Positions 7,243 through 32,013 of a stretch of 34,254 bases of DNA are shown in pieces. The stretch's first letter is position 1, and every line of letters starts with the position of its first letter. Source of the stretch: Aquitalea aquatica (GTDB lineage Bacteria; Pseudomonadota; Gammaproteobacteria; Burkholderiales; Chromobacteriaceae); the NCBI RefSeq assembly GCF_013911085.1, contig NZ_JACERN010000011.1, positions 1 to 34,254 of the forward strand, given 5' to 3'. The notes beneath the pieces are model-generated. The model did no database searches, was not told the DNA's origin, and saw only the letters and a program-made list of their open reading frames with translations. A program made the position numbers and the translations under genes.

Positions 7243-7370
7243 GCCTGTCACCACGGCGCTGGCACGCCGGCCTCTGCGTCCTGCTGCTTATCCTGCTTCC
7301 TGCTGACATCCCTGCCTGTGGTGCCGGCAACTGCGCGTCCTTCTCTGATGGAAGGATAAGGCAGTGTTAT

Positions 7371-7403
7371 ATGCAAAACATCGGGGGCTTGCGCCCCCGA
7401 TGT
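7371..7403 (-). terminator. terminator or attenuator between dppA and dppB
   Basis: A perfect 11-bp stem (7378-7388 with 7393-7403, loop TTGC) is followed on the minus strand by TTTTGCATAT. It starts 33 bases past the dppA stop. It should end most transcripts after dppA and let only part continue into dppBCDF, giving excess binding protein. Apart from this and the candidate promoter, bases 6997-7435 hold nothing I can support. Confidence 0.75.
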
Positions 7404-7435
7404 TCAACACTTCCCCGCAGGGAAGCATGCTGGCA

Positions 7436-9034: not shown

Positions 9035-9125
9035 GTGTTCTTTCCTTTTCCTTTGTACAGACTTCGTGTTTTTTATCGATCGTCCGATCTCATTAAGCGC
9101 CTTTTGGGCTGCTTTGGTCGGATAC

Positions 9126-9152
9126 ATTATGCAGAGAGGGGCAGTTTGACAA
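9126..9152 (-). promoter_or_regulatory. candidate dppA promoter
   Basis: The minus strand has TTGTCA (9147-9152) and CATAAT (9126-9131), each five of six to consensus, but with a short 15-base spacer. It lies about 90 bases before the dppA start in the 177-base gap after the FabH-like gene. Confidence 0.4.
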
Positions 9153-9211
9153 GCACCCCTCCCCTGTTTTCAGTCATTAATTGCGCGTGCACAGTAGTTG
9201 TCAGGCAAAAA

Positions 9212-10490: not shown

Positions 10491-10596
10491 TTAATGCCCC
10501 CGGCCGTTTATAAACCTAGTAAAATGCTCAACTTTGCTGCACTTGCGTCGCAGGTCTGGGATGCTTTGCAACAACCATGTCCGCATGGATGAATTT

Positions 10597-10621
10597 ATAG
10601 TTGACCAAATTAGTCGGGAAT
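10597..10621 (+). promoter_or_regulatory. IscR type 1 operator
   Basis: The 25 bases from ATAGTTGACC onward match the published type 1 IscR consensus at 23 of 25 positions by my count; the two mismatches are at positions 10 and 23. The site overlaps the iscR -35 region, so [2Fe-2S]-IscR bound here would repress the isc operon, as in E. coli. Confidence 0.8.
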
Positions 10622-10631
10622 TGGGTATAAT
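10601..10631 (+). promoter_or_regulatory. isc operon promoter
   Basis: TTGACC (10601-10606) and a perfect TATAAT (10626-10631) lie upstream of iscR, with a long 19-base spacer. The -35 lies inside the IscR operator. The transcription start would be near 10638, about 25 bases before the iscR start codon. Confidence 0.75.
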
Positions 10632-10661
10632 AAGCCCAACCACCCACCGGAGTTTAAGATC

Positions 10662-11156
10662 ATGCGTCTCACCACCAAAGGCCGCTTTGCGGTAACCGCC
10701 ATGCTGGACCTTGCCATGCGCGAAGCCAATGGCCCGGTGACACTGGCCGGCATCAGCGAACGCCAGAGCATTTCCCTTTCCTACCTGGAACAACTGTTTG
10801 GCAAACTGCGCCGTTCCGAACTGGTTGACAGCGTGCGCGGCCCTGGCGGCGGCTACACCCTGGCCCGCGTACCGGCCGACATCTCGGTGGCTGACATCAT
10901 CGCCGCCGTGGATGAGCCGGTTGACGCCACCCAGTGCGGTGGCCGCGAAAACTGTCATGACAATCACCGCTGCATGACCCACGACTTGTGGACCAACCTG
11001 AACGCCACCATTTTCGACTATCTGGCCAAGGTCACCCTGGGCAGCCTGGTTGAAAAGCAGCGCGCCAAGGAAGCAGCAGCCAAAGATAGCAATGTAATGC
11101 AGGACAAGCGCGAAAGCAGCACTCGTACCGCTGCCTCCGCCTCCAGCGCACTGTAA
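10662..11156 (+). CDS. iscR: Fe-S cluster assembly transcriptional regulator IscR
   Basis: A 164-residue Rrf2-family repressor. The winged helix covers about residues 1-75 (MRLTTKGRFAVTAMLDLA; recognition region SLSYLEQLFGKLRR; wing GPGGGYTLAR). The [2Fe-2S] ligands are Cys92, Cys98, Cys104 and His107, exactly as in E. coli. The C-terminal tail (about 130-164) is charged and low in complexity. The start is fixed by GGAG nine bases upstream and conserved MRLTTKGR. It heads the isc operon behind its own operator and presumably adjusts it to Fe-S demand. Confidence 0.98.
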   Translation: MRLTTKGRFAVTAMLDLAMREANGPVTLAGISERQSISLSYLEQLFGKLRRSELVDSVRGPGGGYTLARVPADISVADIIAAVDEPVDATQCGGRENCHDNHRCMTHDLWTNLNATIFDYLAKVTLGSLVEKQRAKEAAAKDSNVMQDKRESSTRTAASASSAL

Positions 11157-11183
11157 GCGCACCGCATCCCCGGAGAATTGATA

Positions 11184-12401
11184 ATGAGTCAGCTCAAGCT
11201 TCCCATCTACCTCGACTATTCGGCCACTACCCCGGTCGATCCCCGCGTTGCCGCCAAGATGATTCCCTATCTGACCGAGCAGTTCGGCAACCCGGCGTCG
11301 CGCAGCCACAGCTTTGGCTGGACGGCAGAAGAGGCGGTAGAGAATGCGCGGGCAGAAGTGGCCAAGCTCCTGAATGCCGACCCCAAGGAAATCGTCTGGA
11401 CCTCCGGTGCCACCGAGTCTGACAACTTGGCCATCAAGGGCGCCGCCCAGTTCTACAAGAGCCGTGGCAAGCACATCATCACCGTCAAGACCGAGCACAA
11501 AGCGGTGCTGGATACATGTCGCGAGCTGGAACGCCAAGGCTTTGAAGTCACTTATCTGGGCGTGCAGGAAAATGGCCTGATCGACATTGAAGAATTCAAG
11601 GCGGCCATCCGTCCGGACACCATCCTGGTGTCGGTGATGTACGTCAACAATGAAATCGGCGTGATCCAGGATATTCCGCAAATCGGCGAAATCTGCCGTG
11701 AAAAAGGCATCATCTTCCATGTCGACGCCACCCAGGCGCCGGGCAAGGTGAAGATGGACATGAATGTGCTGAAAGTGGACCTGATGAGCCTGTCGGCTCA
11801 CAAGGCCTATGGCCCCAAGGGCATCGGTGCCCTGTATGTTCGCCGCAAACCACGTGTGCGTCTGGAAGCACAGATGCACGGCGGTGGCCATGAGCGCGGT
11901 TTCCGTTCCGGCACCCTGCCCACCCATCAGATCGTCGGTATGGGCGAGGCTTTCCGCCTGGCCCGCGAAGAGATGGACAGCGAGAGCGAACGCATCCGCA
12001 TGCTGCGCGACCGCCTGTGGAACGGTATCAAGGACATGGAAGAGGTGTACATCAACGGCGACATCGACCAGCGTGTACCGCACAACCTCAATGTCAGCTT
12101 CAACTTCGTCGAAGGGGAAAGCCTGATCATGGCGATCAAGGACTTGGCAGTTTCCAGTGGTTCGGCCTGCACCTCGGCCTCGCTGGAGCCTTCCTATGTA
12201 CTGCGCGCACTGGGCCGTAACGACGAGATGGCACACAGCTCCATCCGTTTCACCCTGGGCCGCTTCACCACCGAAGAAGAAATCGACTTCGCCATTGCGC
12301 TGTTGAAAGATAAAATCGGCAAGCTGCGCGAACTGTCCCCACTGTGGGAGATGTTCAAGGAAGGCGTAGACCTGAATTCGGTACAGTGGGCCGCACACTG
12401 A
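11184..12401 (+). CDS. iscS: cysteine desulfurase IscS
   Basis: A 405-residue PLP enzyme that converts cysteine to alanine and gives a persulfide for Fe-S clusters and tRNA thiolation. PLP lysine is Lys207 ([12 protein letters not shown]), and the mobile persulfide cysteine is Cys329 in [29 protein letters not shown] at the N-terminus and [13 protein letters not shown] (232-244) are class hallmarks. The ATG at 11184 is preferred over an in-frame TTG six bases earlier, as GGAG lies nine bases upstream of it. Its start is 27 bases after iscR. Confidence 0.98.
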
Positions 12402-18213: not shown

Positions 18214-18300
18214 CTTTAGGTCAGATGCCAGCAGAACAGACTTGCCGGAAAGTCAGCCCCGATTGTGTCGCAATAATGCCGCACTTAACCTGACCTAAAG
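18214..18300. repeat. perfect 11-base inverted repeat, 65 bases apart
   Basis: CTTTAGGTCAG at 18214-18224 and CTGACCTAAAG at 18290-18300 are exact reverse complements, with centres 76 bases apart. They could be paired operators for a looping regulator or the base of a long RNA stem. No U-run follows the second arm. Confidence 0.6.
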
Positions 18301-18399: not shown

Positions 18400-19674
18400 A
18401 TGGTTCAACAGGAACACGCAGCGCAGACGCTGAACCGCGCGACCAAGGGGCTGGGTGCCAGCCCAGCATCCTGTACCCTGCAACAGGTAGCCGGACTAGG
18501 TTGGAACATTCTGCGCGAGGATGTCAGCCTGCCGGTGGCATTACTGCGCCAGAGCCGTATCGAACACAATCTGCAATGGATGCAGCAGTTCATGCAGCGC
18601 TACGGCGTAGAACTGGCCCCGCATGGCAAAACCACCATGAGCCCGGCGTTATTCCACATGCAGCTGGCGCATGGTGCCTGGGGTATCACCCTGGCCACCG
18701 CCCCGCAAGTGCATGCTGCCTATCTGCATGGTATCCGCCGCTTCCTGCTGGCCAACCAGCTGGTGGGCAAGGCCAATATGGCCATCATCTCGCGCCTGCA
18801 ACAGCAAGACCCCGACTTCAGCTTCTGCTGCATTGTCGACTCCGCCGCCAACGTTGATGCACTGGGCCGCTTCTTTGCCCAGAACGGGCAAACCTTGCGC
18901 ATTTTGCTGGAATACGGCGTGGAAGGCGGCCGTACCGGTGTGCGTTCACCGCAGCAGGAAGATGAAGTGCTGGCGGCGATTGCCCGCTGGCCACAATCGC
19001 TCAGCCTGATCGGAGTGGAAATCTACGAGGGCGTGCTGCAACAGGAAGAAGACATCCGGGCCTTCCTGCGCAGCGTGGTGGCCCGTACCCGCGAGCACGC
19101 CGCGCGCCGGCTGTTCCGTGAAGAGAAAATCCTGCTCAGCGGTGCCGGCTCGGCCTGGTACGACGTGGTGGCCGACGAGTTCTCCGGCCTCGACCTGGGC
19201 CAGCCACTGCAGGTGCTGCTGCGCCCCGGCTGCTATCTCACCCACGATGTCGGCATCTATCTGCATGCCGAACAGCGCATCCAGAGCAATAACCCGGTGG
19301 CCCGCGAAATGGGGCGCAGCCTGCAGCCGGCACTGCAATTGTGGGCTTATGTGCAATCGATCCCGGAAAGTGGCCGCGCCATCATTGCACTGGGCAAGCG
19401 CGATGCTGCTTTCGATGCCGGCCTGCCGCAAGTATCACTGCATTTCCGCCCTGGCAGCAGTACGACACCACAGCCGGCTCCGGCTGACTGGATCGTCAGC
19501 GCCATGATGGACCAGCACGCCTTCATGCGTATTCCGGCCGATGCCGACCTGCAGGTGGGCGACATGCTGGCCTTCGAGATATCCCATCCCTGCCTCACCT
19601 TCGACAAATGGCGTCAGCTGCTGCTGGTGGACGATGCCCTCAATGTCACCGGTGCGGTGGAAACCCTGTTTTAG
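18400..19674 (+). CDS. D-serine dehydratase-like (DSD1/D-threonine aldolase family) PLP enzyme, metal-dependent type
   Basis: A 424-residue fold-type III PLP enzyme: N-terminal alanine-racemase-like barrel with PLP lysine Lys77 (APHGKTTMSP) and a C-terminal D-serine-dehydratase-like beta domain. The zinc pair of the eukaryotic-type D-serine dehydratases, His-X-Cys, is present as His396 and Cys398 in SHPCLTFDKW. Family members eliminate water/ammonia from, or cleave, D-3-hydroxy-amino acids. It heads an operon with a GntP permease, N-acyl-D-amino-acid deacylase, RidA and KDG kinase, so D-glucosaminate is a possible substrate besides D-serine (inference). The ATG at 18400 is six bases from GAGGAG; an upstream frame extension is Asn/Phe-rich and excluded. 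Confidence 0.88.
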   Translation: MVQQEHAAQTLNRATKGLGASPASCTLQQVAGLGWNILREDVSLPVALLRQSRIEHNLQWMQQFMQRYGVELAPHGKTTMSPALFHMQLAHGAWGITLATAPQVHAAYLHGIRRFLLANQLVGKANMAIISRLQQQDPDFSFCCIVDSAANVDALGRFFAQNGQTLRILLEYGVEGGRTGVRSPQQEDEVLAAIARWPQSLSLIGVEIYEGVLQQEEDIRAFLRSVVARTREHAARRLFREEKILLSGAGSAWYDVVADEFSGLDLGQPLQVLLRPGCYLTHDVGIYLHAEQRIQSNNPVAREMGRSLQPALQLWAYVQSIPESGRAIIALGKRDAAFDAGLPQVSLHFRPGSSTTPQPAPADWIVSAMMDQHAFMRIPADADLQVGDMLAFEISHPCLTFDKWRQLLLVDDALNVTGAVETLF

Positions 19675-19693
19675 ACCAGAAGCACCACCAAGA

Positions 19694-19718
19694 CCGCCCC
19701 CGCAACGTACGGGGGCGG
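19694..19718 (+). other. GC-rich hairpin between the PLP enzyme and permease genes
   Basis: CCGCCCCCG (19694-19702) pairs perfectly with CGGGGGCGG (19710-19718), loop CAACGTA. There is no U-run, so it is probably a stability or processing element within the operon rather than a terminator. Confidence 0.55.
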
Positions 19719-19748
19719 CACCTCCCCCCTACTACAAGGAGAACCCAC

Positions 19749-21101
19749 ATGACCCCAGTCCTGGGCAGCCAGCTGTTGCTGTATGCCGCCATCGCCATTA
19801 TCGCGCTGGTGATTCTGATTGCACGTTATCGCATCAACCCCTTTATCGTCCTGACGGTGGTTTCCATCGGCCTGGCCCTGGCCGCACAGATGCCGGCCAA
19901 GGACATCATGGCCGCCTATGAAACTGGCGTGGGCAAAACACTGGGCCATATTGCGCTGGTGGTGGCATTGGGCACCATGCTGGGCAAGATGATGGCCGAA
20001 TCGGGCGGTGCCGAGCGCATTGCCCTGACGCTGATCGATAAGTTCGGCGAGAAGAACGCCCACTGGGCCATGGTATGCATCGCCTTTGTCTGCGGCCTGC
20101 CGCTGTTCTTCGAGGTGGGCTTCGTGCTGCTGATTCCGATTGCCTTTACCGTGGCCAAGCGCGCCGGGGTATCCATGCTGCTGGTCGGCCTGCCCATGGT
20201 GGCTGGCCTGTCGGTAGTACATGGACTGGTACCGCCGCATCCGGCTGCCATGCTGGCCGTGAGCGAATACGGTGCCCAGGTAGGCAAGACAGTGTTCTAC
20301 GCCATTATTGTCGGCGTGCCCACCGCCATCATCGCCGGGCCGCTATTTGCCAAATTCATCGCACCGCGCATTGATCTGCCAGCAGAAAACCCGATTGCCA
20401 GCCAGTTTACCGAGCGTGAAACCGGCAAGCGCGAACTGCCAAGCTTTGGCATCACCATCGCCACCATTTTGCTGCCGGTGTTCCTGATGTTGCTGGGTGG
20501 CTGGGCCAATGTATTGACCGACAAGGGCAGCGCCATGAACGGCCTGTTGCTGTTCATCGGCAACTCGGTCATCGCCCTGTTGATCGCCACTCTGGTCAGC
20601 TTCTGGACGCTGGGTATTGCCCGTGGCTTCAGCCGCGACAACATCCTCAAGTTCACCAACGAATGCCTGGCCCCCACGGCCGCCATTACCTTGCTGGTGG
20701 GCGCGGGTGGCGGTCTGAACCGCATCCTGATCGAAACCGGTGTCACCAAGGAAATCATTGCCCTGTCGGCAGAATTCCAGCTGTCACCCCTGCTGCTGGG
20801 CTGGTTACTGGCGGTGCTGATGCGGGTAGCGACCGGCTCGGCCACGGTTGCCATGACCACCGCCGCCGGCATTGTCGCCCCCATTGCCCTGGCCAGCGGC
20901 TATCCGCACCCGGAATTGCTGGTGCTGGCCACCGGTGCCGGCTCGCTGATTCTGTCGCACGTCAACGATGGCGGTTTCTGGCTGGTCAAGGAATACTTCA
21001 ACATGACCGTTATCCAGACCCTGAAAACCTGGACTGTTCTGGAAACCCTGATCTCCGTCGTCGCCTTCCTGCTGACCCTGGGCCTGGCCCAGCTGCTGTA
21101 A
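19749..21101 (+). CDS. GntP-family permease (gluconate/D-serine type)
   Basis: A 450-residue, very hydrophobic inner-membrane protein with about 12 to 14 predicted helices, of the gluconate:H+ symporter family (GntP, IdnT, DsdX). Family hallmarks include ALGTMLGKMMAESGGAERIA (about 74-93), GLPLFFEVGFV and ATGSATVAMTTAAGI in the C-terminal half, followed by GSLILSHVNDGGFWLVKEY. Sugar acids and D-serine are known substrates; sequence alone does not separate them. The start has AAGGAG seven bases upstream; upstream in-frame sequence overlaps the previous gene and is not membrane-like. Confidence 0.92.
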   Translation: MTPVLGSQLLLYAAIAIIALVILIARYRINPFIVLTVVSIGLALAAQMPAKDIMAAYETGVGKTLGHIALVVALGTMLGKMMAESGGAERIALTLIDKFGEKNAHWAMVCIAFVCGLPLFFEVGFVLLIPIAFTVAKRAGVSMLLVGLPMVAGLSVVHGLVPPHPAAMLAVSEYGAQVGKTVFYAIIVGVPTAIIAGPLFAKFIAPRIDLPAENPIASQFTERETGKRELPSFGITIATILLPVFLMLLGGWANVLTDKGSAMNGLLLFIGNSVIALLIATLVSFWTLGIARGFSRDNILKFTNECLAPTAAITLLVGAGGGLNRILIETGVTKEIIALSAEFQLSPLLLGWLLAVLMRVATGSATVAMTTAAGIVAPIALASGYPHPELLVLATGAGSLILSHVNDGGFWLVKEYFNMTVIQTLKTWTVLETLISVVAFLLTLGLAQLL

Positions 21102-21132
21102 GCGCACGACCGCACCTGAAGAAAGCCCTAGC

Positions 21133-21996
21133 GTGGACATCCTGTATCTGATTCGCAGTCGTCTGGACCAGCTCAGCCCAACCCAGCTGAAAGTCGCCGA
21201 AGCCATTCTGGACGACGTCCGTTTTGCCGCCTCAGCCGGCATCGAACAACTGGCAGCCAAGGCTGGAGTCAGCCCGGCAGCGATGTCACGCTTTGCCAAG
21301 GCCATGGACTGCGAGGACATCCGCACCCTGCGCATGCGGCTGGCACAGGCTGCCACGGTGGGGCAACGCTTTCTGGATGGCAGCCCGGCACCCGCCGAAC
21401 CAGCCAGCTTTTTCGGCAACATCGTCAGTGATATTGAAAAGACCCTGCGGCGCCACCTGGCCGGTTTTGATGAGCAGCAATTCAGCGCGGCCGTCGACCT
21501 GATCAGCCAGGCCGATCGCCTGGTGGCTTTTGGCATGGGCGGTGGCTCCACCGTATTTTCCGACGAGCTGCAATTCCGCCTGGTCAGGCTGGGACATATG
21601 CTGACGGCCTATCACGACCCGGTGTTGATGCGCATTACTGCGGCCACGCTGGGGCCACATGATCTGCTGATCGTGCTGTCCACCACCGGCATCACACCCG
21701 AACTGCTGGCGGCAGTGGACATCGCCCGAGGCTACGGTACCCGCCTGCTGGCGCTGACCCGGCCGGACAGCCCGCTGGCACGCCGTGCCGATGTGGTGCT
21801 GCCGGTATTCCTGGACGAAACCGACTTCATCTACAAACCCACAGCGGCCCGTTACGGCATGCTGCTGGCGGTAGACATCCTCGCCACCGAGCTGGCACTG
21901 CGCCAGCCGGAGCACAGCCAGGAGCTGCTGCGCCGCGTCAAGCTGGCACTGGACGACTACCGCCACGGCGAAGACCGATTGCCGCTTGGAGACTGA
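21133..21996 (+). CDS. MurR/RpiR-family transcriptional regulator
   Basis: A 287-residue regulator with an N-terminal RpiR helix-turn-helix (about 1-75; LAAKAGVSPAAMSRFAKAM is the HTH) and a C-terminal SIS phosphosugar-binding domain (about 120-255; VAFGMGGGSTVFSDELQFRL, LSTTGITPELLAAVDIARGYG). It starts at GTG with a poor GAAAG ribosome-binding site, 31 bases after the permease. SIS domains usually bind sugar phosphates, and HexR of this family responds to KDPG, which fits control by a product of the KdgK encoded two genes downstream. Target sites may be the dyads before the operon. Confidence 0.93.
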   Translation: MDILYLIRSRLDQLSPTQLKVAEAILDDVRFAASAGIEQLAAKAGVSPAAMSRFAKAMDCEDIRTLRMRLAQAATVGQRFLDGSPAPAEPASFFGNIVSDIEKTLRRHLAGFDEQQFSAAVDLISQADRLVAFGMGGGSTVFSDELQFRLVRLGHMLTAYHDPVLMRITAATLGPHDLLIVLSTTGITPELLAAVDIARGYGTRLLALTRPDSPLARRADVVLPVFLDETDFIYKPTAARYGMLLAVDILATELALRQPEHSQELLRRVKLALDDYRHGEDRLPLGD

Positions 21997-21999
21997 ACC

Positions 22000-23499
22000 A
22001 TGCACACCTACGACACCCTGATCCGCAGTGTCACCATAGTCGACGGCAGCGGCGCAGCAGCCTATGTCGCTGATGTCGGCATCCGCCAGCAGCGCATTGC
22101 CCTGCTTGGCGATGCCGGTGTGGCCACCGCCGAGCACACCATTGATGGCCAGGGCCTGACGCTGGCCCCCGGCTTTATCGATGTCCACACCCATGACGAC
22201 ACCATGGTAATCCGCCAGCCGCAGATGCTGCCCAAGCTCAGTCAGGGCGTCACCACGGTGATTGTCGGCAATTGCGGCATCAGTGCCTCGCCGGTCAGCC
22301 TGCAAGGCGAACCGCCCGACCCAATGAACCTGCTGGGGCCAAAGGATGCCTTCCGCTACCCGCGTTTTGCCGACTACCGCGCTGCAGTGGAACAGGCTGA
22401 ACCGGCGGTCAATGTGGCAGCGCTGGTGGGGCATACCGCCTTGCGCAGCAATCATCTGGACCGGCTGGATCGTACTGCCACGCCCACTGAAATCAGCGCC
22501 ATGCGCGCTCAACTGGCCGACAGCCTGCGTCATGGTGCGCTGGGGCTGAGCAGCGGGCTGGCCTATGCCTCAGCCTTCAGTGCCGACAGCAGCGAAGTGG
22601 AACAACTGGCGGCCGAGCTGAACAGCTGCGGCGGGATATACACCACTCATCTGCGCAGCGAATTCGAACCGGTGCTGGAAGCCATGGACGAAGCCTGGCG
22701 CGTAGGCCGCCATGCCAACAGCCCGGTCATCGTGTCGCACATGAAATGTGCCGGCAAAGGCAACTGGGGCCGCAGCCCACAGCTGCTGGCCTCGCTGGAA
22801 CAGGCGGCCAGCCGGCAACAAGTCGGCTGTGACTGCTACCCCTACTCGGCCAGTTCCTCCACGCTCGACCTGAAACAGGTGACCGCTGATTTTGAAATCT
22901 TCATCACCTGGTCCACCCCGCATCCGGAGATGGCCGGCCAGACCCTGCAGGCTATTGCCGAACAATGGCAGCTCCCTTTGCTGGATGCCGCCCGCAAATT
23001 GCAACCGGCCGGTGCGGTGTACCACGGCATGGAGCCGGCAGATGTGGAAAACATTCTGCGTCATCCGCTGACCATGGTCGGCTCGGATGGCCTGCCGGAA
23101 GACCCGCTGCCCCATCCACGACTGTGGGGGGCTTTTCCCCGCGTACTGGGCTACTACTGCCGCGAACGCCAGCTGTTCAGCCTGGAAACCGCAGTGCACA
23201 AGATGACCGGCCTGTCCGCCAGCCGTTTTGCCCTGGATGAGCGCGGCCTGATCCGCCCCGGCTACTGGGCCGATCTGGTGCTATTTGACGCCGCCACCAT
23301 CCAGGACACCGCCACCTTCCATGCACCGATCCAGGCAGCAACAGGAATCAGCGCAGTCTGGGTCAATGGCGTGCTCAGCTGGCAGGACAAGGCGGCCACT
23401 GGCGTGCGTGCCGGCCGCTTTCTGCCGCGTACCCGCGACATCCGCTGCAGCTTTCCCGCCTTTACCCCTCTGACATCAGACAAGGAAACCCGCTCATGA
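22000..23499 (+). CDS. N-acyl-D-amino-acid deacylase (D-aminoacylase family)
   Basis: A 499-residue amidohydrolase-superfamily enzyme. The metal and catalytic residues of D-aminoacylase are all present at family spacing: His63 and His65 (DVHTHDD), Cys92 (GNCGIS), His217 (YTTHLRSE), His247 (VSHMKC) and Asp363 (GSDG). ALGLSSGLAYASAF and a C-terminal RPGYWADLVLFD also fit. It removes the acyl group from N-acyl-D-amino acids; N-acetyl-D-glucosaminate would be chemically such a compound. GGAG lies eight bases before the ATG, only three bases after the regulator's stop, and the stop overlaps the next start by four bases. Confidence 0.95.
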   Translation: MHTYDTLIRSVTIVDGSGAAAYVADVGIRQQRIALLGDAGVATAEHTIDGQGLTLAPGFIDVHTHDDTMVIRQPQMLPKLSQGVTTVIVGNCGISASPVSLQGEPPDPMNLLGPKDAFRYPRFADYRAAVEQAEPAVNVAALVGHTALRSNHLDRLDRTATPTEISAMRAQLADSLRHGALGLSSGLAYASAFSADSSEVEQLAAELNSCGGIYTTHLRSEFEPVLEAMDEAWRVGRHANSPVIVSHMKCAGKGNWGRSPQLLASLEQAASRQQVGCDCYPYSASSSTLDLKQVTADFEIFITWSTPHPEMAGQTLQAIAEQWQLPLLDAARKLQPAGAVYHGMEPADVENILRHPLTMVGSDGLPEDPLPHPRLWGAFPRVLGYYCRERQLFSLETAVHKMTGLSASRFALDERGLIRPGYWADLVLFDAATIQDTATFHAPIQAATGISAVWVNGVLSWQDKAATGVRAGRFLPRTRDIRCSFPAFTPLTSDKETRS

Positions 23500-23882
23500 G
23501 CGATTTGAAACGATTTGGCATTGCCGGTGGTACCGGCGGCCAGCAAATGCCGTTTGCCCGTGCCGTACAGGCCGCCGATGGCTGGCTGTATGTCTCCGGC
23601 CAGACCCCGATGGTCAATGGCGAAGTGATTGAAGGTGGCATCGTCACCCAGTCGCACCAGTGCATCCAGAACGTGATGGCCATTCTGGAAGAAGCCGGCT
23701 ACGGCCCGGAACACGTGGTGCGCTGTGGCGTGTGGCTGGATGATACCCGCGACTTTGCCTCGTTCAACCGCGTGTTCCTGCAGTACTTTGGCGAGCACCC
23801 GCCCGCCCGCGCCTGCGTGCAATCCAGCATGGTGATCGACTGCAAGGTCGAAGTGGACTGCATCGCCTACAAAAAGCCCTAG
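23496..23882 (+). CDS. RidA/YjgF-family enamine/imine deaminase
   Basis: A 128-residue Rid-family protein. The carboxylate-binding arginine Arg105 (PPARACVQ) and Glu119 (KVEVDCIAY) are present, as in active RidA enzymes. It hydrolyses reactive 2-aminoacrylate-like enamines or imines released by PLP-dependent eliminations. It overlaps the deacylase stop by four bases (ATGA), with AAGGA upstream, so it is translationally coupled. Its presence with the PLP enzyme suggests that enzyme works by elimination rather than aldol cleavage (inference). Confidence 0.93.
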   Translation: MSDLKRFGIAGGTGGQQMPFARAVQAADGWLYVSGQTPMVNGEVIEGGIVTQSHQCIQNVMAILEEAGYGPEHVVRCGVWLDDTRDFASFNRVFLQYFGEHPPARACVQSSMVIDCKVEVDCIAYKKP

Positions 23883-23933
23883 TCCCTTGCCCCTCACCCG
23901 AGGGGCATACCCCGCACGGAGAAAAACCCAACC

Positions 23934-24842
23934 ATGCATATAGCCTGCCTTGGTGAAGGCATGATCGAACTGAGTGGTCAGCCCCTGCAGCGCCGTTTTG
24001 GCGGAGACACGCTCAATACCGCCATCTACCTGGCCCGACTGCTGGCCGGCAGCCCGCACGATGTGCGCTATCTAAGCGGCATGGGCAATGACAGTCTGAG
24101 TCGCCAGTTACTGGCCGACTGGCAGGCAGAAGGTGTGGATGTCAGCCATATCGTCATCCAGCCAGGGAAATTGCCTGGTCTGTACATGGTGGAAACCGAC
24201 GCCAAGGGCGAGCGCAGCTTTCTCTACTGGCGCAGCGACAGTGCCGCCCGGCATTACTTTGCCTCCGGCATTGATTTTGCCAGCCTGCTGAACCCCAGCC
24301 ATCTGCAGGCAGTGTACCTTTCCGGCATTTCGCTGGCCCTGTTCAACGAAACCGAACGGCAGCGGCTGCTGGAGGCCTTGCGGCTATTCAAACAGGCGGG
24401 TGGCAAGATATGGTTCGACAACAATTTCCGCCCCTCACTGTGGACTGCCGCACAAGCGCGCTCCGGCCATGAGGCCATCCTGGCACTGGCCGATATCGGT
24501 TTGCTGACGCTGGATGATGAAAGAGCACTGTACGGCAATGAAGATGCCGAAGCCGTCGCCAGCCGCACACTGGCACTGGGCTGTACCGAAGTGGTGATCA
24601 AACGTGGCGGTGAACCCTGCCTGCTGGCCATGGCAGAGTTACGGGAAGAAGTGTTCGCCACCGCCGTGCCCCGCGTCGTAGACACCACCGCAGCGGGTGA
24701 CTCCTTTGCTGCAGGCTATCTGGCCAGCCGTACGCAGGGTTATAGCCCGTCACAAGCCGCCGCCTATGCCCACCGGCTGTCGGCTGCTGTCATTGCCCAT
24801 GCCGGAGCCATCATTCCCCTCGCCGCGATGCCACTACGCTAG
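23934..24842 (+). CDS. kdgK: 2-dehydro-3-deoxygluconokinase (KDG kinase), PfkB family
   Basis: A 302-residue ribokinase-fold sugar kinase. The anion hole and catalytic base are in DTTAAGDSFAAGYL (250-263, Asp256). Beyond generic PfkB motifs it has KdgK-specific stretches recalled from E. coli KdgK: GGDTLNTAIYLARL (23-36), FLYWRSDSAAR (96-106), YLSGISLALF, FDNNFRPSLW (161-170), LTLDDERALYG and the terminal GAIIPLAAMP. It phosphorylates 2-keto-3-deoxygluconate to KDPG for the Entner-Doudoroff aldolase. GGAG is 12 bases from the ATG, a long spacing. It is the last gene of the operon. Confidence 0.9.
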   Translation: MHIACLGEGMIELSGQPLQRRFGGDTLNTAIYLARLLAGSPHDVRYLSGMGNDSLSRQLLADWQAEGVDVSHIVIQPGKLPGLYMVETDAKGERSFLYWRSDSAARHYFASGIDFASLLNPSHLQAVYLSGISLALFNETERQRLLEALRLFKQAGGKIWFDNNFRPSLWTAAQARSGHEAILALADIGLLTLDDERALYGNEDAEAVASRTLALGCTEVVIKRGGEPCLLAMAELREEVFATAVPRVVDTTAAGDSFAAGYLASRTQGYSPSQAAAYAHRLSAAVIAHAGAIIPLAAMPLR

Positions 24843-24858: not shown

Positions 24859-24912
24859 AACGGCCCGGACCACTTCACGGCAGCCTGCTGAAGTGGTCCG
24901 GGCCGTTCTTTG
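24859..24912 (+). terminator. long-stem terminator after kdgK
   Basis: A 19-bp perfect stem (24859-24877 with 24889-24907, loop eleven bases) ends in TTCTTTGT. The stem is unusually long and the U-run modest. It lies 17 bases past the kdgK stop and closes the operon. Confidence 0.75.
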
Positions 24913-25061: not shown

Positions 25062-26150
25062 ATGCGCAAAACAATATTATTCATTGCGGCCTTGCTGTTG
25101 GCTGCTTTTTGGCTTGGATCTAGCCAGGCACGCTGCGCGCCATGGATAGTCAACACCTCGTCCGCCAGCAACGGAGCCCTGTTCCTGATCACGGATACCA
25201 AAAGCGGCATCGCCAGCAACCAGCCTAACTTCACCGCCATCAGCGGCTGGTCCAGCGACCGCCTGGTCAGCCCCCTGGGGACCTGTGATATGAATGGCGG
25301 CGGCTTTTATTTCATTCTGGACGGGACAACATCGCCGCCGCTGGGGCTGACCGCAACTGGCATGAGCAGCGCGGTAGGCAGCTATAGCGAAAGCGGCGTC
25401 AACTACCCGGTTTACCCCAGCTCGGTACCTGGCATCGGTTTCATCATCAAACAGCGCATTGTCAGCCCAGCCAGCGCCACCGTTCCCGGCGGCACGGCCA
25501 TCAGCTTTACACCAACAGCCAGCCAGCAAAGCTTCAATAGCTATATTGCCGGCAAGCTGATCAAAACCGGCGATATCGGCAATGTGAATGTCTCTGCCAT
25601 TCGTCTGCCGGTCACCTATACCCTGACCTTTACCGGCCGCTTCGCTGGCGAAATCAGTACGGCCAGCAACAGTTTCAGTGGTACTGCTGTTGGTAACTAC
25701 ACCGTGCAGAACGTCAGTTGCACGGTCAATACCAGCTCTTTGCAAGTCACACTCGCCAGCATCGCGCCGACCGACCTGCCCGGCCTCAACAGTACCGCCA
25801 AGCCGACACCATTCAACCTGGGGCTAACCTGTCCGAGCAGCACCAGCGTGGCGATTTACATGACGCTGACCGACAACAACAACCCCGGCAATACCGGTAA
25901 TCTGCTGAGTCTTAGCCCAGGCTCCAGTGCCAGCGGGGTCAACTTGCAGATTCTGCGCAATAGCGGCACCCCCACCCTGGTCAACTTTGGCGCAGACTCC
26001 AGCGCAGCGGGAAACCTGAACCAGTTGCTGATGGCAACCGGAGCCACCGGCAGCCAGTCCTTCCCCTTTCTGGTGCGTTACATCCGTACCGGCACGCTGT
26101 CAGGTGGCTCCGTCAATGGCCTGGCGACTTTCACCATGAGTTATCAATAG
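25062..26150 (+). CDS. fimbrial adhesin-like secreted protein (type 1 pilus family)
   Basis: A 362-residue exported protein. Signal peptide: RK at 2-3, hydrophobic core, cleavage probably after SSQA (residue 23). Two cysteine pairs, Cys25/Cys75 and Cys220/Cys257, suggest a two-domain layout as in tip adhesins: a receptor-binding-like N-terminal domain (about 24-210) and a C-terminal pilin domain (about 215-362) rich in Ser/Thr/Gly/Asn beta sequence, ending TFTMSYQ with the penultimate tyrosine typical of chaperone-usher subunits. No chaperone, usher or other pilin gene is next to it. The ribosome-binding site is weak (TGGA). Binding target unknown. Confidence 0.7.
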   Translation: MRKTILFIAALLLAAFWLGSSQARCAPWIVNTSSASNGALFLITDTKSGIASNQPNFTAISGWSSDRLVSPLGTCDMNGGGFYFILDGTTSPPLGLTATGMSSAVGSYSESGVNYPVYPSSVPGIGFIIKQRIVSPASATVPGGTAISFTPTASQQSFNSYIAGKLIKTGDIGNVNVSAIRLPVTYTLTFTGRFAGEISTASNSFSGTAVGNYTVQNVSCTVNTSSLQVTLASIAPTDLPGLNSTAKPTPFNLGLTCPSSTSVAIYMTLTDNNNPGNTGNLLSLSPGSSASGVNLQILRNSGTPTLVNFGADSSAAGNLNQLLMATGATGSQSFPFLVRYIRTGTLSGGSVNGLATFTMSYQ

Positions 26151-26253: not shown

Positions 26254-27150
26254 TTAGCGTCGTGTCCACCACCAACTGGTATCCGGCTTGGCATTACCTG
26301 CTGGCAATTCGGTATTGGCTATCTGGGTAGTCTGCCAGCCATTTTCGCCCAGCAAGCGGATGGCTTCTGCGTGATGGCGCAAAAACAATGCCTTGAAACT
26401 ACCATCGCGTTCGGCCATTTTCAGGCCCTGTAGTATGCGCTTGGCCAGCGGCGTGTTTTCCTTGCCCACCCAGAAATACACCGGGAAGGGAAAATAAATG
26501 GCCTTGGTTTTTTCCAGTGTCAGCGCAGGATAGCGGGGCAGTAATTCCCGCATTTCGCTGCCTACCTCGTTCAGCCCGCGCGGAAAGGCATCGAAGCGCC
26601 CGGCAACCAGCATCTCGAACAGGCTTTCATAGCCAATGGATGCCAGCACTTCATAACCATTGTTCTTCATGATGGGGTAGTCAGCCCACTGACTGTTCAG
26701 GCCCAGCCGGACACCGGCACGGAACTGTTGTGGATTCATGCCACGAAAGATGGCGACATCCTCCTTGCGCACAAAAAACACCCGGTAGCCAAGGATGCCC
26801 TTGAGGATGTCCATGCGTACCGGCTGCAGCAGCCTTTCCCGCTGCGCATTAGGCGCGAAGGCAAGCACATCCACCTTACCGGTGCTGAGTAACTGCTCTG
26901 CACGCCATTGCGTCACCTTGTCGTCCAGCGGCACCAACTCGTAACGGCGGTGATCCACTTTTTCGACATGATCCAGAGCCAGTTTCAGCAAGGCCCAGCG
27001 ATAGGTGTAAATGCTGCCGCTGGGGTAATAGCGGATCACATTGTCAGCGGCCTGGGCTGGCAGGCTAGCAAGCAGGCAAATCAGTACACGCAATACACCA
27101 AAGCATTGGCGCTTGCCAGAGAGAAGCTTGAAAATACGCGATGATGGCAT
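26254..27150 (-). CDS. orphan periplasmic solute-binding-like protein
   Basis: A 298-residue exported protein of the type II periplasmic binding protein fold (amino-acid-binding SBP_bac_3-like), judged from overall pattern: signal peptide to about residue 34 (LPAQA|AD), then IRYYPSGSIYTY, KVDVLAFAPN, GYRVFFVRKED, RLGLNSQWADYPIMKNNGYEVL, YESLFEMLVAGRFDAFPRG, and a C-terminal PLAKRILQGLKMAERDGSFKALF segment that matches the end of such domains. No permease or ATPase is adjacent, and no signalling domain is fused. Ligand unknown. The ATG at 27150 has AGGA eight bases upstream. The 209 bases between it and fdsD show no further gene. Confidence 0.75.
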   Translation of the reverse strand: MPSSRIFKLLSGKRQCFGVLRVLICLLASLPAQAADNVIRYYPSGSIYTYRWALLKLALDHVEKVDHRRYELVPLDDKVTQWRAEQLLSTGKVDVLAFAPNAQRERLLQPVRMDILKGILGYRVFFVRKEDVAIFRGMNPQQFRAGVRLGLNSQWADYPIMKNNGYEVLASIGYESLFEMLVAGRFDAFPRGLNEVGSEMRELLPRYPALTLEKTKAIYFPFPVYFWVGKENTPLAKRILQGLKMAERDGSFKALFLRHHAEAIRLLGENGWQTTQIANTELPAGNAKPDTSWWWTRR

Positions 27151-27359: not shown

Positions 27360-27590
27360 TCAGCGTAGCTCTGCGGGGCAAGACAATTTCTGCACCGCCA
27401 GGCAGGCGGCCGGGCGTAGCTCTCCGGCTTCGCCCTGCGCTACCGCCTGTGCCAGCCGCTGGCGCATGGCCGGGGCCCAGAAGCGTTGCAGATGGCTGGC
27501 GATTTCCGCCGCAGCTTCTTCCTCGCTGCAATCGGCGCTGAAAAAGTCGCTGATCTGATTGGCCATCTTCACCAGGTGTGACGGGTTCAT
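27360..27590 (-). CDS. fdsD: formate dehydrogenase delta subunit
   Basis: A 76-residue protein of the FdsD family, a small subunit needed for active NAD-dependent molybdenum formate dehydrogenase. The opening MNPSHLVKMANQISDFF and HLQRFWAPAMRQRL (48-61 region) are typical. The ATG overlaps the fdsA TGA by four bases with GGAGG upstream, so it is coupled to fdsA. In the commonly described fdsGBACD order an fdsC gene would come before it; here it is missing. No clear terminator follows. Confidence 0.9.
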   Translation of the reverse strand: MNPSHLVKMANQISDFFSADCSEEEAAAEIASHLQRFWAPAMRQRLAQAVAQGEAGELRPAACLAVQKLSCPAELR

Positions 27591-30457
27591 TGCACCTCCT
27601 CCCCACGGCCTTGCCGTAGCAGTTCCTGTTGCTGACGGCTGAAATGGCGGTAACGCTGCTGCCATTCCGACGGCTGGTTGACCTTGATGATTTCCACCGC
27701 CGTTACCTTGTATTCCGGGCAGTTGGTGGCCCAGTCGGAATTATCCGTGGTGATGACATTGGCCCCGGATTCCGGGAAGTGGAAGGTGGTGTACACCACA
27801 CCGGCGGCCACCCGTTCGCTTACCCTGGCGCGCAGCACAGTTTCACCGGCACGGCTGGCCACGCCCACCCAGTCGCCATCGACAATGCCACGGTTTTCGG
27901 CATCGGCAGGGTGGATTTCCAGACGGTCTTCCTCGTGCCAGGCCACGTTGTCGGTGCGGCGGGTTTGCGCGCCGACATTGTACTGGCTGAGGATGCGCCC
28001 GGTGGTGAGCAACAGCGGGAAGCGGCCGTTGACGCGCTCTTCGGTCGGCACGTAGCGGGTGATCATGAAGCGGCCCTTGCCACGCACGAATTCGCCGATA
28101 TGCATGGTGACCGTGCCATCCGGCGCTGCCGCATTGCATGGCCATTGCAGGCTGCCGTGGCGGTCCAGCGCGGCATAGCTGACGCTGTTGAAAGTGGGCG
28201 TCAGGCGGGCGATTTCATCCATGATTTCCGATGGATGACGATAATCCATGGCATAGCCCAGTGCCTGGGCCAGAGCGACAGTGACTTCCCAGTCGGCCTT
28301 GCCGCCCAGCGGGTCCATCACCTTGCGCACGCGCGAGATGCGGCGCTCGGCATTGGTGAAGGTGCCGTCTTTTTCCAGGAAGGAGCTGCCCGGCAAGAAC
28401 ACATGGGCGAACTTGGCGGTTTCATTCAGGAAGATATCCTGCACCACCACGCACTCCATGGCCGACAGCGCGGCGGTGACATGCTGGGTGTTGGGGTCGC
28501 TCTGCGCGATGTCCTCGCCCTGGCAGTACAGCGCCTTGAAGCTGCCATCCAGCGCAGCTTCGAACATATTGGGAATGCGCAGGCCGGGTTCGTTATGCAA
28601 GGACACACCCCAGGCCTGTTCAAATTCGGCACGCACCACGTCGTCCGACACATGGCGGTAGCCGGGGAATTCGTGCGGGAAGCTGCCCATGTCGCAGGAG
28701 CCTTGCACATTGTTCTGGCCGCGCAGCGGGTTCACCCCCACGCCTTCGCGGCCGATATTGCCGGTAGCCATGGCCAGGTTGGCAATCGCCATCACCGAGG
28801 TACTGCCCTGGCTGTGTTCGGTCACCCCCAGGCCGTAATAGATGGCGGCATTACCAGCGCTGGCATACAGCCGGGCGGCGGCGCGGATGTCGTCCGCCGC
28901 CACGCCGCATACTTCAGCCATCGCTTCCGGCGCGTGTTCCGGCTGGGCGACAAAGTGCCGCCAGTGGCCAAAGGCTTCGCTATCGCAACGGGCGGCGACA
29001 AAGTCCTCGTCCAGCAGCCCTTCGGTGACGATGACATGGGCCAAGGCATTGAGCATGGCCACATTGGTGCCGGGACGCAGCGCCAGATGATGGGCGGCGC
29101 GGGCGTGGATGGCGTCCACCAGATCGATACGGCGCGGGTCGATGACTATCAGCTGCGCACCCTCGCGCAGGCGGCGTTTCAATTGCGAGGCAAATACCGG
29201 ATGGGCATCGCTGGGGTTGGCACCAATCACCAGCACTACGTCGGCCTGCATCACCGAGTCGAAACTCTGGGTACCGGCGGATTCACCCAGCGTCTGTTTC
29301 AGGCCATAACCGGTGGGCGAATGGCAGACGCGGGCGCAGGTGTCGACGTTGTTGTTGCCAAAAGCGGCGCGCACCAGCTTTTGCACCAGATAGGTTTCTT
29401 CATTGGTGCAGCGGCTGGAGGTGATGCCGCCCACCGCGTCGCGGCCATATTTTTGCTGGATGCGGCGGAATTCGCTGGCAGCGTGATTCAGCGCCACTTC
29501 CCAGCTGACCTCCTGCCACGGCTCGTCGATGCTGTGGCGGATCATCGGCTTAGTGATGCGGTCCGGGTGGGTGGCATAACCCCAGGCAAAGCGGCCCTTG
29601 ACGCAGGAATGGCCATGGTTGGCCTGGCCGTTCTTGTCCGGCACCATGCGCACCAGCTGGTTGCCCTTGAGTTCGGCACGGAAGGAGCAGCCCACGCCGC
29701 AATAAGCGCAGGTGGTGATGACGCTGCGCTCCGGCTGGCCCCACTGGATGACGCTCTTTTCCATCAGCGTGGCGGTGGGGCAGGCCTGCACGCAGGCCCC
29801 GCAGGACACACATTCCGAACCGAGAAAATCCGCCCCGCCCGCCGCGCTGACACGGGATTCAAAACCGCGTCCGGCAATGGTCAGCGCAAACGTGCCCTGG
29901 GTTTCTTCACAGGCGCGCACGCAGCGGTTGCACACGATGCACTTGGACGGGTCGTAATCAAAATACGGGTTGGAAACGTCTTTCTTGTCCTGCAGATGAT
30001 TGGCCCCGTCCATGCCATAGCGCACTTCACGCAGGCCCACCTGCCCGGCCACGGTTTGCAGCTCGCAATTGCCATTGGCACTGCAGGTGAGGCAATCCAG
30101 CGGATGGTCGGAAATATACAGCTCCATCACGCCACGGCGCAGTCTGGCCAGTTTTTCGCTCTGGGTGCGCACCACCATGCCGGGCGATACCGGTGTGGTA
30201 CAGGAAGCCGGATAGCCGCGATGGCCGTCAATTTCCACCATGCACATGCGGCAGGAGCCAAACGGCTCCAGGCTGTCGGTGGCGCACAGTTTGGGGATGG
30301 CAGTGTCCAGCAGTGCCGCCGCATGCATCACCGAGGTACCCGGCGGCACGCTGATGTTCTGGCCGTCAATAGTGAGGGTGATGCTGGCTTCGCCGGGGTG
30401 GGCCGGCGTGCCCATGTCCTTGTTGCAGGATGCACCTGCTCCGCATTGGCAGCTCAT
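27587..30457 (-). CDS. fdsA: NAD-dependent formate dehydrogenase alpha subunit (Mo/W-bis-MGD)
   Basis: A 956-residue catalytic subunit that oxidises formate to CO2. The cluster sites are visible in order: [2Fe-2S] Cys58, Cys69, Cys72, Cys86; His-ligated cluster His118, Cys122, Cys125, Cys131; two ferredoxin-type [4Fe-4S] sets Cys173/176/179/183 and Cys216/219/222/226; the Mo-domain [4Fe-4S] Cys250/253/257/285. The metal ligand is cysteine (Cys378-His379 in RVCHSPT), not selenocysteine. A molybdopterin dinucleotide-binding domain ends the protein. The start at 30457 has AGGAG upstream and overlaps the fdsB stop by four bases. Length matches known FdsA (about 960). Confidence 0.97.
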   Translation of the reverse strand: MSCQCGAGASCNKDMGTPAHPGEASITLTIDGQNISVPPGTSVMHAAALLDTAIPKLCATDSLEPFGSCRMCMVEIDGHRGYPASCTTPVSPGMVVRTQSEKLARLRRGVMELYISDHPLDCLTCSANGNCELQTVAGQVGLREVRYGMDGANHLQDKKDVSNPYFDYDPSKCIVCNRCVRACEETQGTFALTIAGRGFESRVSAAGGADFLGSECVSCGACVQACPTATLMEKSVIQWGQPERSVITTCAYCGVGCSFRAELKGNQLVRMVPDKNGQANHGHSCVKGRFAWGYATHPDRITKPMIRHSIDEPWQEVSWEVALNHAASEFRRIQQKYGRDAVGGITSSRCTNEETYLVQKLVRAAFGNNNVDTCARVCHSPTGYGLKQTLGESAGTQSFDSVMQADVVLVIGANPSDAHPVFASQLKRRLREGAQLIVIDPRRIDLVDAIHARAAHHLALRPGTNVAMLNALAHVIVTEGLLDEDFVAARCDSEAFGHWRHFVAQPEHAPEAMAEVCGVAADDIRAAARLYASAGNAAIYYGLGVTEHSQGSTSVMAIANLAMATGNIGREGVGVNPLRGQNNVQGSCDMGSFPHEFPGYRHVSDDVVRAEFEQAWGVSLHNEPGLRIPNMFEAALDGSFKALYCQGEDIAQSDPNTQHVTAALSAMECVVVQDIFLNETAKFAHVFLPGSSFLEKDGTFTNAERRISRVRKVMDPLGGKADWEVTVALAQALGYAMDYRHPSEIMDEIARLTPTFNSVSYAALDRHGSLQWPCNAAAPDGTVTMHIGEFVRGKGRFMITRYVPTEERVNGRFPLLLTTGRILSQYNVGAQTRRTDNVAWHEEDRLEIHPADAENRGIVDGDWVGVASRAGETVLRARVSERVAAGVVYTTFHFPESGANVITTDNSDWATNCPEYKVTAVEIIKVNQPSEWQQRYRHFSRQQQELLRQGRGEEVQ

Positions 30458-32013
30458 CGTGCTTGCTCCTGAGTGTCCAGCCCGAAGTCGGCCGGAAAAT
30501 GACGCATGGCGCTTTGTACCGGGAACGGCGTCATGCCGCCCAGCGCGCACAAGGAGCCGTATTGCATGGTGTCGCACAGATCATCCAGCAGCGCGCGCTG
30601 GCATTCCCGTTCGGCGCTATCCGGTGCCGCCAGCAGCCGCTCGATGACTTCCACCCCGCGGGTGGAGCCGATACGACAGGGCGTGCACTTGCCGCAGGAT
30701 TCCTCGGCACAGAACTGCATGGCAAAGCGTGCCATTTGCCCCAGGTGCAGGCTGTCATCGCACAGTACCGCGCCACCGTGGCCCAGCATGGCGCCAATGG
30801 CTGCCAGCGCTTCGTAATCCAGCGGGGTATCAAACTGCGACGGTGGAATCCACGCGCCCAGCGGGCCGCCTAGCTGCACGGCTTTCACCGGTTTGCCGCT
30901 GGCGGTGCCGCCGCCGTAATCGAACACCAGCTCGCGTAAGGTCAGACCGAACGCCCGCTCCACCAGCCCGCCACGCCGTACATTGCCTGCCAGCTGGAAA
31001 GCCATGGTGCCCAGCGAACGGCCCATGCCGAAATTGCGATACCAGCTGGCCCCGCGCGACAGAATCAGCGGCACCGAAGCCAGTGATAGCACGTTGTGCA
31101 CCAGGGTGGGCTGGCCGAACAGGCCTTGCAAGGCGGGCAGTGGTGGCTTGGCGCGCACCGTGCCACGGCGGCCTTCGACTGACTCCAACAGCGAGGTTTC
31201 CTCGCCGCAGATATAGGCCCCGGCACCCTCGCGCACTTCGATATCAAACTCGTGGCCGCCGTGGGCCACATCCTCGCCCAGATAGCCATGGGTGCGGGCA
31301 ATGTCGATAGCCTCACGCAGCACAGCAATGGCCGGGGCGTATTCGGAGCGTACATAGATATAGCCACGGCTGGCACCCACCGCCAGCCCGGCAATGGTCA
31401 TGCCTTCGATCAGCAGGAAGGGGTCGCCTTCCATCAGCATGCGGTCAGCAAAGCTGCCGGAATCGCCCTCGTCGGCATTGCACACCACGTATTTCTGTTC
31501 CGCCTGGGCCTGACGCACGGTGCGCCACTTGATACCGGCCGGAAAGGCCGCACCGCCACGGCCACGCAGGCCGGATTCCAGCACCTCGGCCACGATTTCG
31601 TCGTGGCTCAGCCGTGCCGCGTGCTGCAGCCCCTGATATCCACCGTGGGCCAGATAGTGTTCCAACGACAGCGGGCTGGTGATACCGGCGCGGGCAAACA
31701 GCAGGCGCTGCTGGGTTTTCAGATAGGGCAGCTGTTCCACCAGCCCCACCGACAGCAAGTGGTCACCATTGGCGGCCAGGTCCACATCCAGCAGGCTGGC
31801 GACTTGATCCGGGCTGACTTCGCGGTAACCAGCACGGCCTTGTGCGGTATCCACTTCCACCAGCGGCTCCAGCCAGAACAGGCCGCGCGAGCTGGTGCGC
31901 ACGATAGTGATGTCGAGCTTGCGGCGCTCCGCTTCGGCGGCGAACTCTGCCGCCACGCCATCCGCCCCCACCGCACAGGCCACCGAATCCATCGGGATAT
32001 ACAGGGTCAGCAT
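30454..32013 (-). CDS. fdsB: NAD-dependent formate dehydrogenase beta subunit (NADH/FMN)
   Basis: A 519-residue NuoF-like diaphorase subunit that passes electrons from formate to NAD+. An N-terminal thioredoxin-like part (about 1-110) precedes the NAD site GLRGRGGAAFPAGIKW (148-163), the FMN site NADEGDSGSFADR (179-191) and the [4Fe-4S] ligands Cys440, Cys443, Cys446 and Cys489 (ESCGKCTPCR, GSLCALG). AAGGAGG precedes the ATG. It overlaps fdsG by seven bases and fdsA by four, so the operon is tightly coupled. Confidence 0.97.
   Translation of the reverse strand: MLTLYIPMDSVACAVGADGVAAEFAAEAERRKLDITIVRTSSRGLFWLEPLVEVDTAQGRAGYREVSPDQVASLLDVDLAANGDHLLSVGLVEQLPYLKTQQRLLFARAGITSPLSLEHYLAHGGYQGLQHAARLSHDEIVAEVLESGLRGRGGAAFPAGIKWRTVRQAQAEQKYVVCNADEGDSGSFADRMLMEGDPFLLIEGMTIAGLAVGASRGYIYVRSEYAPAIAVLREAIDIARTHGYLGEDVAHGGHEFDIEVREGAGAYICGEETSLLESVEGRRGTVRAKPPLPALQGLFGQPTLVHNVLSLASVPLILSRGASWYRNFGMGRSLGTMAFQLAGNVRRGGLVERAFGLTLRELVFDYGGGTASGKPVKAVQLGGPLGAWIPPSQFDTPLDYEALAAIGAMLGHGGAVLCDDSLHLGQMARFAMQFCAEESCGKCTPCRIGSTRGVEVIERLLAAPDSAERECQRALLDDLCDTMQYGSLCALGGMTPFPVQSAMRHFPADFGLDTQEQAR

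Follow-up and report, generated by a model that had tools for sequence, protein, structure and literature searches.

The closest described system to the operon considered here is the ong pathway of Pseudoalteromonas prydzensis ACAM 620, by which this bacterium catabolizes 2-acetamido-2-deoxy-D-gluconate (N-acetyl-D-glucosaminate, GlcNAc1A). OngB deacetylates GlcNAc1A, OngC deaminates the product to 2-keto-3-deoxygluconate (KDG), and the kinase KdgK acts next (PMC9537276, 2022). In the same study, OngR is described as a repressor and OngIT as an importer of the SSS family; OngD, a RidA protein, was found essential, with a role left unexplained there. The ong cluster, accompanied by a lytic polysaccharide monooxygenase (LPMO), is also reported from terrestrial Gammaproteobacteria and one betaproteobacterium, and the main text does not name Aquitalea (PMC9537276). 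Structures of the P. prydzensis deacetylase (PpOngB; PDB 9KB1) pointed to residues that separate GlcNAc1A deacetylases from D-aminoacylases (PMC12017989, 2025). In a study of Aeromonas, the authors could not confirm a GlcNAc1A route, the OngB and OngC matches being distant or none (PMC11653859). Here, we consider a 34,254-nt stretch of Aquitalea aquatica (NZ_JACERN010000011.1; hereafter, the window), which lies on contig 16 of a 4.46-Mb genome rated 100% complete. Six of its genes very probably form a GntP-type version of the ong catabolic route, a degree of confidence that concerns the route itself and excludes the source of the substrate.

The six open reading frames (ORFs) all lie on the + strand and are separated by 74, 31, 3, -4, and 51 nt. 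They encode an OngC-like pyridoxal phosphate (PLP) lyase (18400..19674; Pfam D-ser_dehydrat and Ala_racemase_N), a GntP-family permease (19749..21101; Pfam GntP_permease, 527 bits), an OngR-like RpiR/SIS regulator with a GTG start (21133..21996; HTH_6 and SIS), an OngB-like amidohydrolase of subtype V (22000..23499; Amidohydro_3, with D-aminoacylase-type relatives), an OngD-like RidA protein (23496..23882; Pfam Ribonuc_L-PSP), and a predicted KDG kinase of the PfkB family, KdgK (23934..24842). Judged by their sequences, the genes map as OngC, GntP, OngR, OngB, OngD, and KdgK. An original prediction, made from the letters alone, had proposed this one-strand order, with three bases between regulator and deacylase and a four-base overlap between deacylase and ridA; the coordinates bear it out, and Pfam and NCBIfam models agree with its family assignments, the KdgK model falling just under its cut-off.

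As a stand-in for the ACAM 620 cluster we used that of P. arabiensis (locus L040), in which the order is C-R-B-D-SSS-KdgK-GH20 (SSS and GH20, glycoside hydrolase family 20, being named from cluster members); among the ACAM 620 genes, OngB was the one compared directly. The published screening rule for ong clusters is at least four co-occurring homologues with E < 1e-5 and identity > 30% (PMC9537276). Against L040, the window shows 46% identity for OngC, 41% for OngR, 54% for OngB, 60% for OngD, and 36% for KdgK, and the operon falls within the rule. It shares with the P. prydzensis cluster these five genes, the relative order C-R-B-D and, by gene content, a route in which an unphosphorylated substrate would be deacetylated and deaminated before a KDG kinase acts last. 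It differs by a GntP gene between C and R in place of the SSS-family OngIT, and by a KdgK gene that directly follows OngD. Moreover, the operon lacks OngA (GH20) and the TonB receptor OngOT, and the genome has no match to an AA10 LPMO. The sequence of uptake, deacetylation, and ammonia elimination to KDG put forward in the original prediction, with KdgK as the following step, equals the published P. prydzensis route. Its core was already published in 2022 and is not a new idea; what the window adds is a variant of the GntP type, located in a genome where the pathway's usual LPMO, GH18, and GH20 families gave no match.

By analogy with P. prydzensis, where the three enzyme steps (deacetylase, lyase, and kinase) were shown along with the repressor and the requirement for OngD, the GntP permease would import GlcNAc1A and the OngB-like zinc amidohydrolase would take off its acetyl group. 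The OngC-like lyase would then remove ammonia from D-glucosaminate (GlcN1A) to give KDG, and KdgK would convert KDG to 2-keto-3-deoxy-6-phosphogluconate (KDPG). An Eda aldolase encoded elsewhere would split KDPG into pyruvate and glyceraldehyde-3-phosphate. The RidA protein would support the pathway in some way, possibly by the clearing of enamines that the original prediction had ascribed to it, and the RpiR regulator would repress the operon when substrate is lacking. The activities ascribed here to the window proteins are predictions drawn from their sequences. The genome contains one Eda-family match (237 bits), located on another contig beside an ILVD_EDD (Edd-family) gene, so that KDPG can probably be split.

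Several family comparisons bear on these assignments. The best of the 20 NCBIfam models listed for the kinase is KdgK (NF052444), and in PDB the kinase matches 3lhx (263.5 bits), which carries the name ketodeoxygluconokinase. For the regulator, the HexR model gives 148.6 bits, its cut-off being 296. It is thus assigned to the RpiR/SIS family, as originally proposed, and appears as a HexR-like protein that the model test does not identify with HexR itself. The OngC-like enzyme, 46.1% identical to OngC of L040, keeps Lys77 (in HGKT) and His396 and Cys398 (in SHPC), which are invariant across 39 aligned rows. It scores 71.4 bits with the 3-hydroxy-D-aspartate aldolase model (BhcC, NF045642), far from the cut-off of 690. 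Its best PDB match is 3gwq (529 bits, 58.6% identity), named D-serine deaminase, the next being a D-threonine aldolase at 74.7 bits. By kinship, 3GWQ may itself be a GlcN1A lyase.

The name of this best match raises the question of whether the operon instead breaks down N-acyl-D-amino acids, for example N-acetyl-D-serine or N-acetyl-D-threonine, with deacylation followed by deamination to an alpha-keto acid. There is also a match between the permease and the DsdX model, though at 322.2 bits, below the cut-off of 618, and PpOngC deaminates D-serine and D-threonine as well (PMC9537276). A kdgK gene would, however, have no evident use in such a pathway. The original prediction had taken the behavior of the PLP enzyme toward D-serine and D-threonine as its refuting test. 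This test is weak, because PpOngC accepts both amino acids (PMC9537276) and the specific step is that of the deacetylase.

Active site of the deacetylase

In a search of PDB, the window deacylase matches 9g5m (664 bits), PpOngB (9kb1, 555 bits), the A. faecalis D-aminoacylase AfDam (1m7j, 484 bits), and BbDam (394 bits). It was aligned with PpOngB, 9g5m, AfDam, and 54 relatives, of which 43 come from the 45 loci of a similarity scan and 11 from hand-picked stretches. Overall identity to PpOngB is 55%, and all 20 active-site residues compared are identical, namely six metal or catalytic positions, seven contacting the acetamido and carboxylate moieties, and seven around the sugar chain. Thus, the zinc ligands Cys97, His222, and His252 and the catalytic Asp368 are kept, together with His68 and His70. 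Ser292 and Gln298 are present, as are the small cavity residues Ala193, Ala256, and Gly348. In PpOngB, Glu226, Ser290, Ser292, and Gln298 hold the hydroxyls of GlcNAc1A (PMC12017989).

The D-aminoacylases AfDam (1M7J) and BbDam (3GIP) share the zinc-site residues and the catalytic Asp with the window protein (AfDam as aligned here, BbDam according to PMC12017989). AfDam agrees with PpOngB at the first 13 positions compared, whereas six of the seven sugar-chain positions differ. Position 292 is Thr in both D-aminoacylases, and position 298 is Leu in AfDam and Arg in BbDam (PMC12017989); our own sequence alignment places Arg at position 298 of AfDam. The AfDam cavity is hydrophobic, being lined by Phe191, Met254, Leu298, and Met346 (PMC12017989). 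The window enzyme has Ala, Ala, Gln, and Gly at these places, and Ser at 292.

These residues, which fit PpOngB and not AfDam, argue for a sugar-acid substrate, as the original prediction had held. An N-acyl-D-amino-acid pathway would find support in the 47.6% identity between the window deacylase and AfDam. However, PpOngB and two homologues deacetylated GlcNAc1A and no other substrate (PMC12017989); the P. arabiensis OngB was assayed in that work, from a strain that may differ from that of L040. Furthermore, none of the eight aligned deacylases without the Ser/Gln pair has OngC or KdgK nearby. Degradation of N-acyl-D-amino acids is therefore very improbable, and the window deacylase is predicted to be a GlcNAc1A deacetylase, catalyzing the specific step of the route.

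A related possibility is that the main substrate is the already deacetylated D-glucosaminate, or another 2-acetamido-aldonate such as N-acetyl-galactosaminate. A single lyase and a single kinase would suffice for either acid, and the isolate Br23, related to Aquitalea, grew to use D-glucosaminic acid as well as N-acetylglucosamine (GlcNAc) on EcoPlates (PMC4905999). Nevertheless, the deacylase gene is tightly embedded in the operon, 3 nt after the regulator gene and overlapping ridA by 4 nt, and its Glu226/Ser290/Ser292/Gln298 set is, as a sequence match and with the C4 configuration left aside, that which holds the GlcNAc1A hydroxyls in PpOngB. We regard this alternative, which is compatible with the GlcNAc1A route, as unlikely.

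Ser292 and Gln298 occur together in 46 of the 54 relatives (hereafter, Ser/Gln type). Among the eight others, one (L113) has no zinc Cys and shares only 37% identity. In the tree, the window sequence falls among the Ser/Gln-type rows, apart from AfDam, under a weakly supported fork. It groups with the four Aquitalea loci, in a branch that also holds Pseudomonas, two loci of another family (L108 and L109), Bordetella (L007), Paracidobacterium (L023), and 9g5m. Two of the OngB relatives, L034 and L112, carry Thr292 and Arg298 and have ATP-binding cassette (ABC) transporter genes nearby; their substrate may differ. As for 9G5M and 9GV8, named amidohydrolase family protein and close to the window OngB, 9G5M carries Ser292 and Gln298, and these proteins may be GlcNAc1A pathway enzymes. 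A literature search on 9G5M found no publication.

Gene neighborhoods and the permease

Within the fetched stretches, OngC is found in 37 of the 46 Ser/Gln-type loci and in none of the eight others. The same counts hold for OngD (37/46 versus 0/8), and KdgK is found in 18/46 versus 0/8; an OngR relative occurs in 33 of the 46. It should be noted that the loci share ancestry and were selected for their resemblance to the query, so that these counts and the Fisher value of the comparison (2.3e-5) are descriptive. Since this combination of genes is encountered again in other genera, the gene set is more than a chance arrangement. Within the genus, a scan of named genomes gives deacylase identities of 98% for Aquitalea palustris and of 95, 87, and 88% for three other Aquitalea.

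The permease belongs to the GntP family by the TIGR00791 model (486.3 bits, above the cut-off of 292.75). A GntP gene lies near OngB in 14 of the 54 loci and an SSS protein in 23. The order C-GntP-R-B-D is found in L108 and L109, and GntP stands beside OngB in an acidobacterium (L023). In Bordetella (L007), genes for an oligopeptide-type ABC transporter are located between OngC and OngR. Thus, the importer appears to be exchangeable while the enzymes stay. Each such importer would carry GlcNAc1A, which would also be the substrate of the window GntP. In addition, seven Pseudomonas loci (L005, L006, L009-L011, L014, and L015) combine GntP, OngB, and an OngR relative, whereas OngC, OngD, and KdgK are all absent from the stretch that was fetched.

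Several observations weigh against a GntP-type GlcNAc1A route in the window. The KdgK score (368.3 bits) is below the NCBIfam cut-off of 400, and KdgK is missing from 28 of the 46 Ser/Gln-type stretches and OngC from nine. The branch of the window OngB lies beside, and not inside, that of PpOngB and L040. The Ser/Gln rows are united by a weak fork (87/77, drawn open), which also takes in the two Thr/Arg rows L034 and L112. Glucosaminate use was common to all eight isolate types of the EcoPlate study, a Chromobacterium relative included, and is therefore not specific (PMC4905999). Finally, a literature search pairing GntP with glucosaminic acid found nothing, and searches on glucosaminate catabolism, its dehydratase, and gene names gave no GntP-glucosaminate link among the matches listed.

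Source of the substrate

The original prediction had linked the operon to chitin- or GlcNAc-derived sugar acids. As far as the organism's own chitin breakdown is concerned, this link finds no support: the genome has no match to AA10 LPMO, GH18, or GH20, although LPMOs of other families would escape this search. A membrane glucose dehydrogenase dependent on pyrroloquinoline quinone (TIGR03074), looked for as an internal source of glucosaminate, has no match in the genome either. Two GH19 (chitinase class I) matches, of 33.5 and 32.3 bits, exceed the cut-off of 25.5; both are weak, and the frames that contain them are of 222 aa. Some cutting of chitin or cell walls by these proteins may occur. 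Because AA10 LPMO, GH18, and GH20 are without match, the Aquitalea module most likely serves the uptake of free GlcNAc1A made by other organisms.

A role like that in P. prydzensis, in which the operon would serve oxidative breakdown of chitin by the cell itself, would be compatible with the catabolic route, and would agree with the shared core enzymes, the two GH19 matches, and the chitinase-associated KEGG orthologues counted in an Aquitalea metagenome-assembled genome (MAG) from a pitcher-plant study (PMC11651108). The authors of the EcoPlate study likewise propose, from data not shown, that their isolates make use of chitin or GlcNAc (PMC4905999). The hints from these two studies speak somewhat against a pure scavenger. 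On the other hand, besides the missing families and the weakness of the GH19 matches, AA10 LPMO is found in none of the 10 genus genomes versus 21 of the 51 others of the family (21/61 in all). We consider such a role quite improbable. Deacylase matches at E <= 1e-60 show the reverse distribution, with 8/10 genus genomes and 1/51 others (G434, whose protein is not of the Ser/Gln type). No genome of the family has both a deacylase match and an LPMO, the OngB side of this comparison being in effect one lineage.

When the comparison is widened, 9 of the 13 loci that have both OngC and GH20 are in LPMO-matching genomes, versus none of the 24 that have OngC but not GH20. The latter group includes seven near-alike Pseudomonas oryzihabitans-type loci and a short contig of a MAG (L026), where a GH20 gene may have been missed because the contig ends. 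A simple rule is contradicted by the seven Pseudomonas GntP loci without nearby OngC, and by L008, which are all in LPMO-matching genomes. For the former reason, the idea that GntP-type clusters as a class belong to genomes without LPMO was rejected.

We lean, by a narrow measure, toward a broader proposal. GntP permeases would be a second importer class for GlcNAc1A, and the GlcNAc1A core would have become a stand-alone scavenging module for bacteria that have little or no chitin-cutting machinery and live on the oxidized monomer released by chitin degraders. The present case would extend a pathway mostly described from marine bacteria to a freshwater genus that is not among the chitin degraders, and points to GntP as a transporter of an oxidized amino sugar. 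It also suggests that bacteria which do not oxidize chitin feed on GlcNAc1A as a shared good. Proteins named D-aminoacylase or D-serine deaminase in databases are, when encoded in such clusters, probably sugar-acid enzymes.

Flanking signals and neighboring genes

Upstream of the ongC-like gene, an inverted repeat (18214..18300) has perfect 11-nt arms, CTTTAGGTCAG and CTGACCTAAAG, at 18214-18224 and 18290-18300, 65 nt apart. When up to one mismatch is allowed, the arm sequence has two sites in the whole window, both exact, for a chance mean of 0.28; at least two sites were obtained in 2 of 100 shuffles. Among the Aquitalea relatives, L002 has both arms exact and L001 has one exact and one with one mismatch, while L003 (Aquitalea pelogenes) and L004 (Aquitalea sp. 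LB_tupeE) have a single arm with two mismatches. The repeat is a candidate operator for the RpiR regulator. No OngR relative was detected in the 19.5-kb stretches of L003 and L004 (E up to 1e-8, frames of at least 90 aa), and in this branch the regulator seems to have been lost, or moved, from the GntP-OngB interval.

Downstream of kdgK, a hairpin at 24859..24907 (+) comprises 19 pairs, a bulge, and three more pairs, followed by the short, interrupted T run CTTTGT. Its fold is strong (z = -6.7; none of 200 shuffles folds equally well), and it is absent from the calls of a consensus terminator scan of the window. The closing terminator of the original prediction is thus upheld as a hairpin and not by the scan; we read it as a probable terminator of the operon.

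Directly after the hairpin, positions 25062-26150 encode a 362-aa protein with a fimbrial domain, to which L001 has one relative and L003 four. Three sizeable ORFs, 26254-27150 (-), 7364-9244 (+), and 10491-12398 (-), gave no Pfam match in our scans; the second and third overlap long ORFs of the opposite strand and may not be genes. Finally, at 27587-32013 (-), genes for a molybdopterin oxidoreductase and Nuo51-type subunits adjoin, an arrangement that we take to be that of NAD-dependent formate dehydrogenases.

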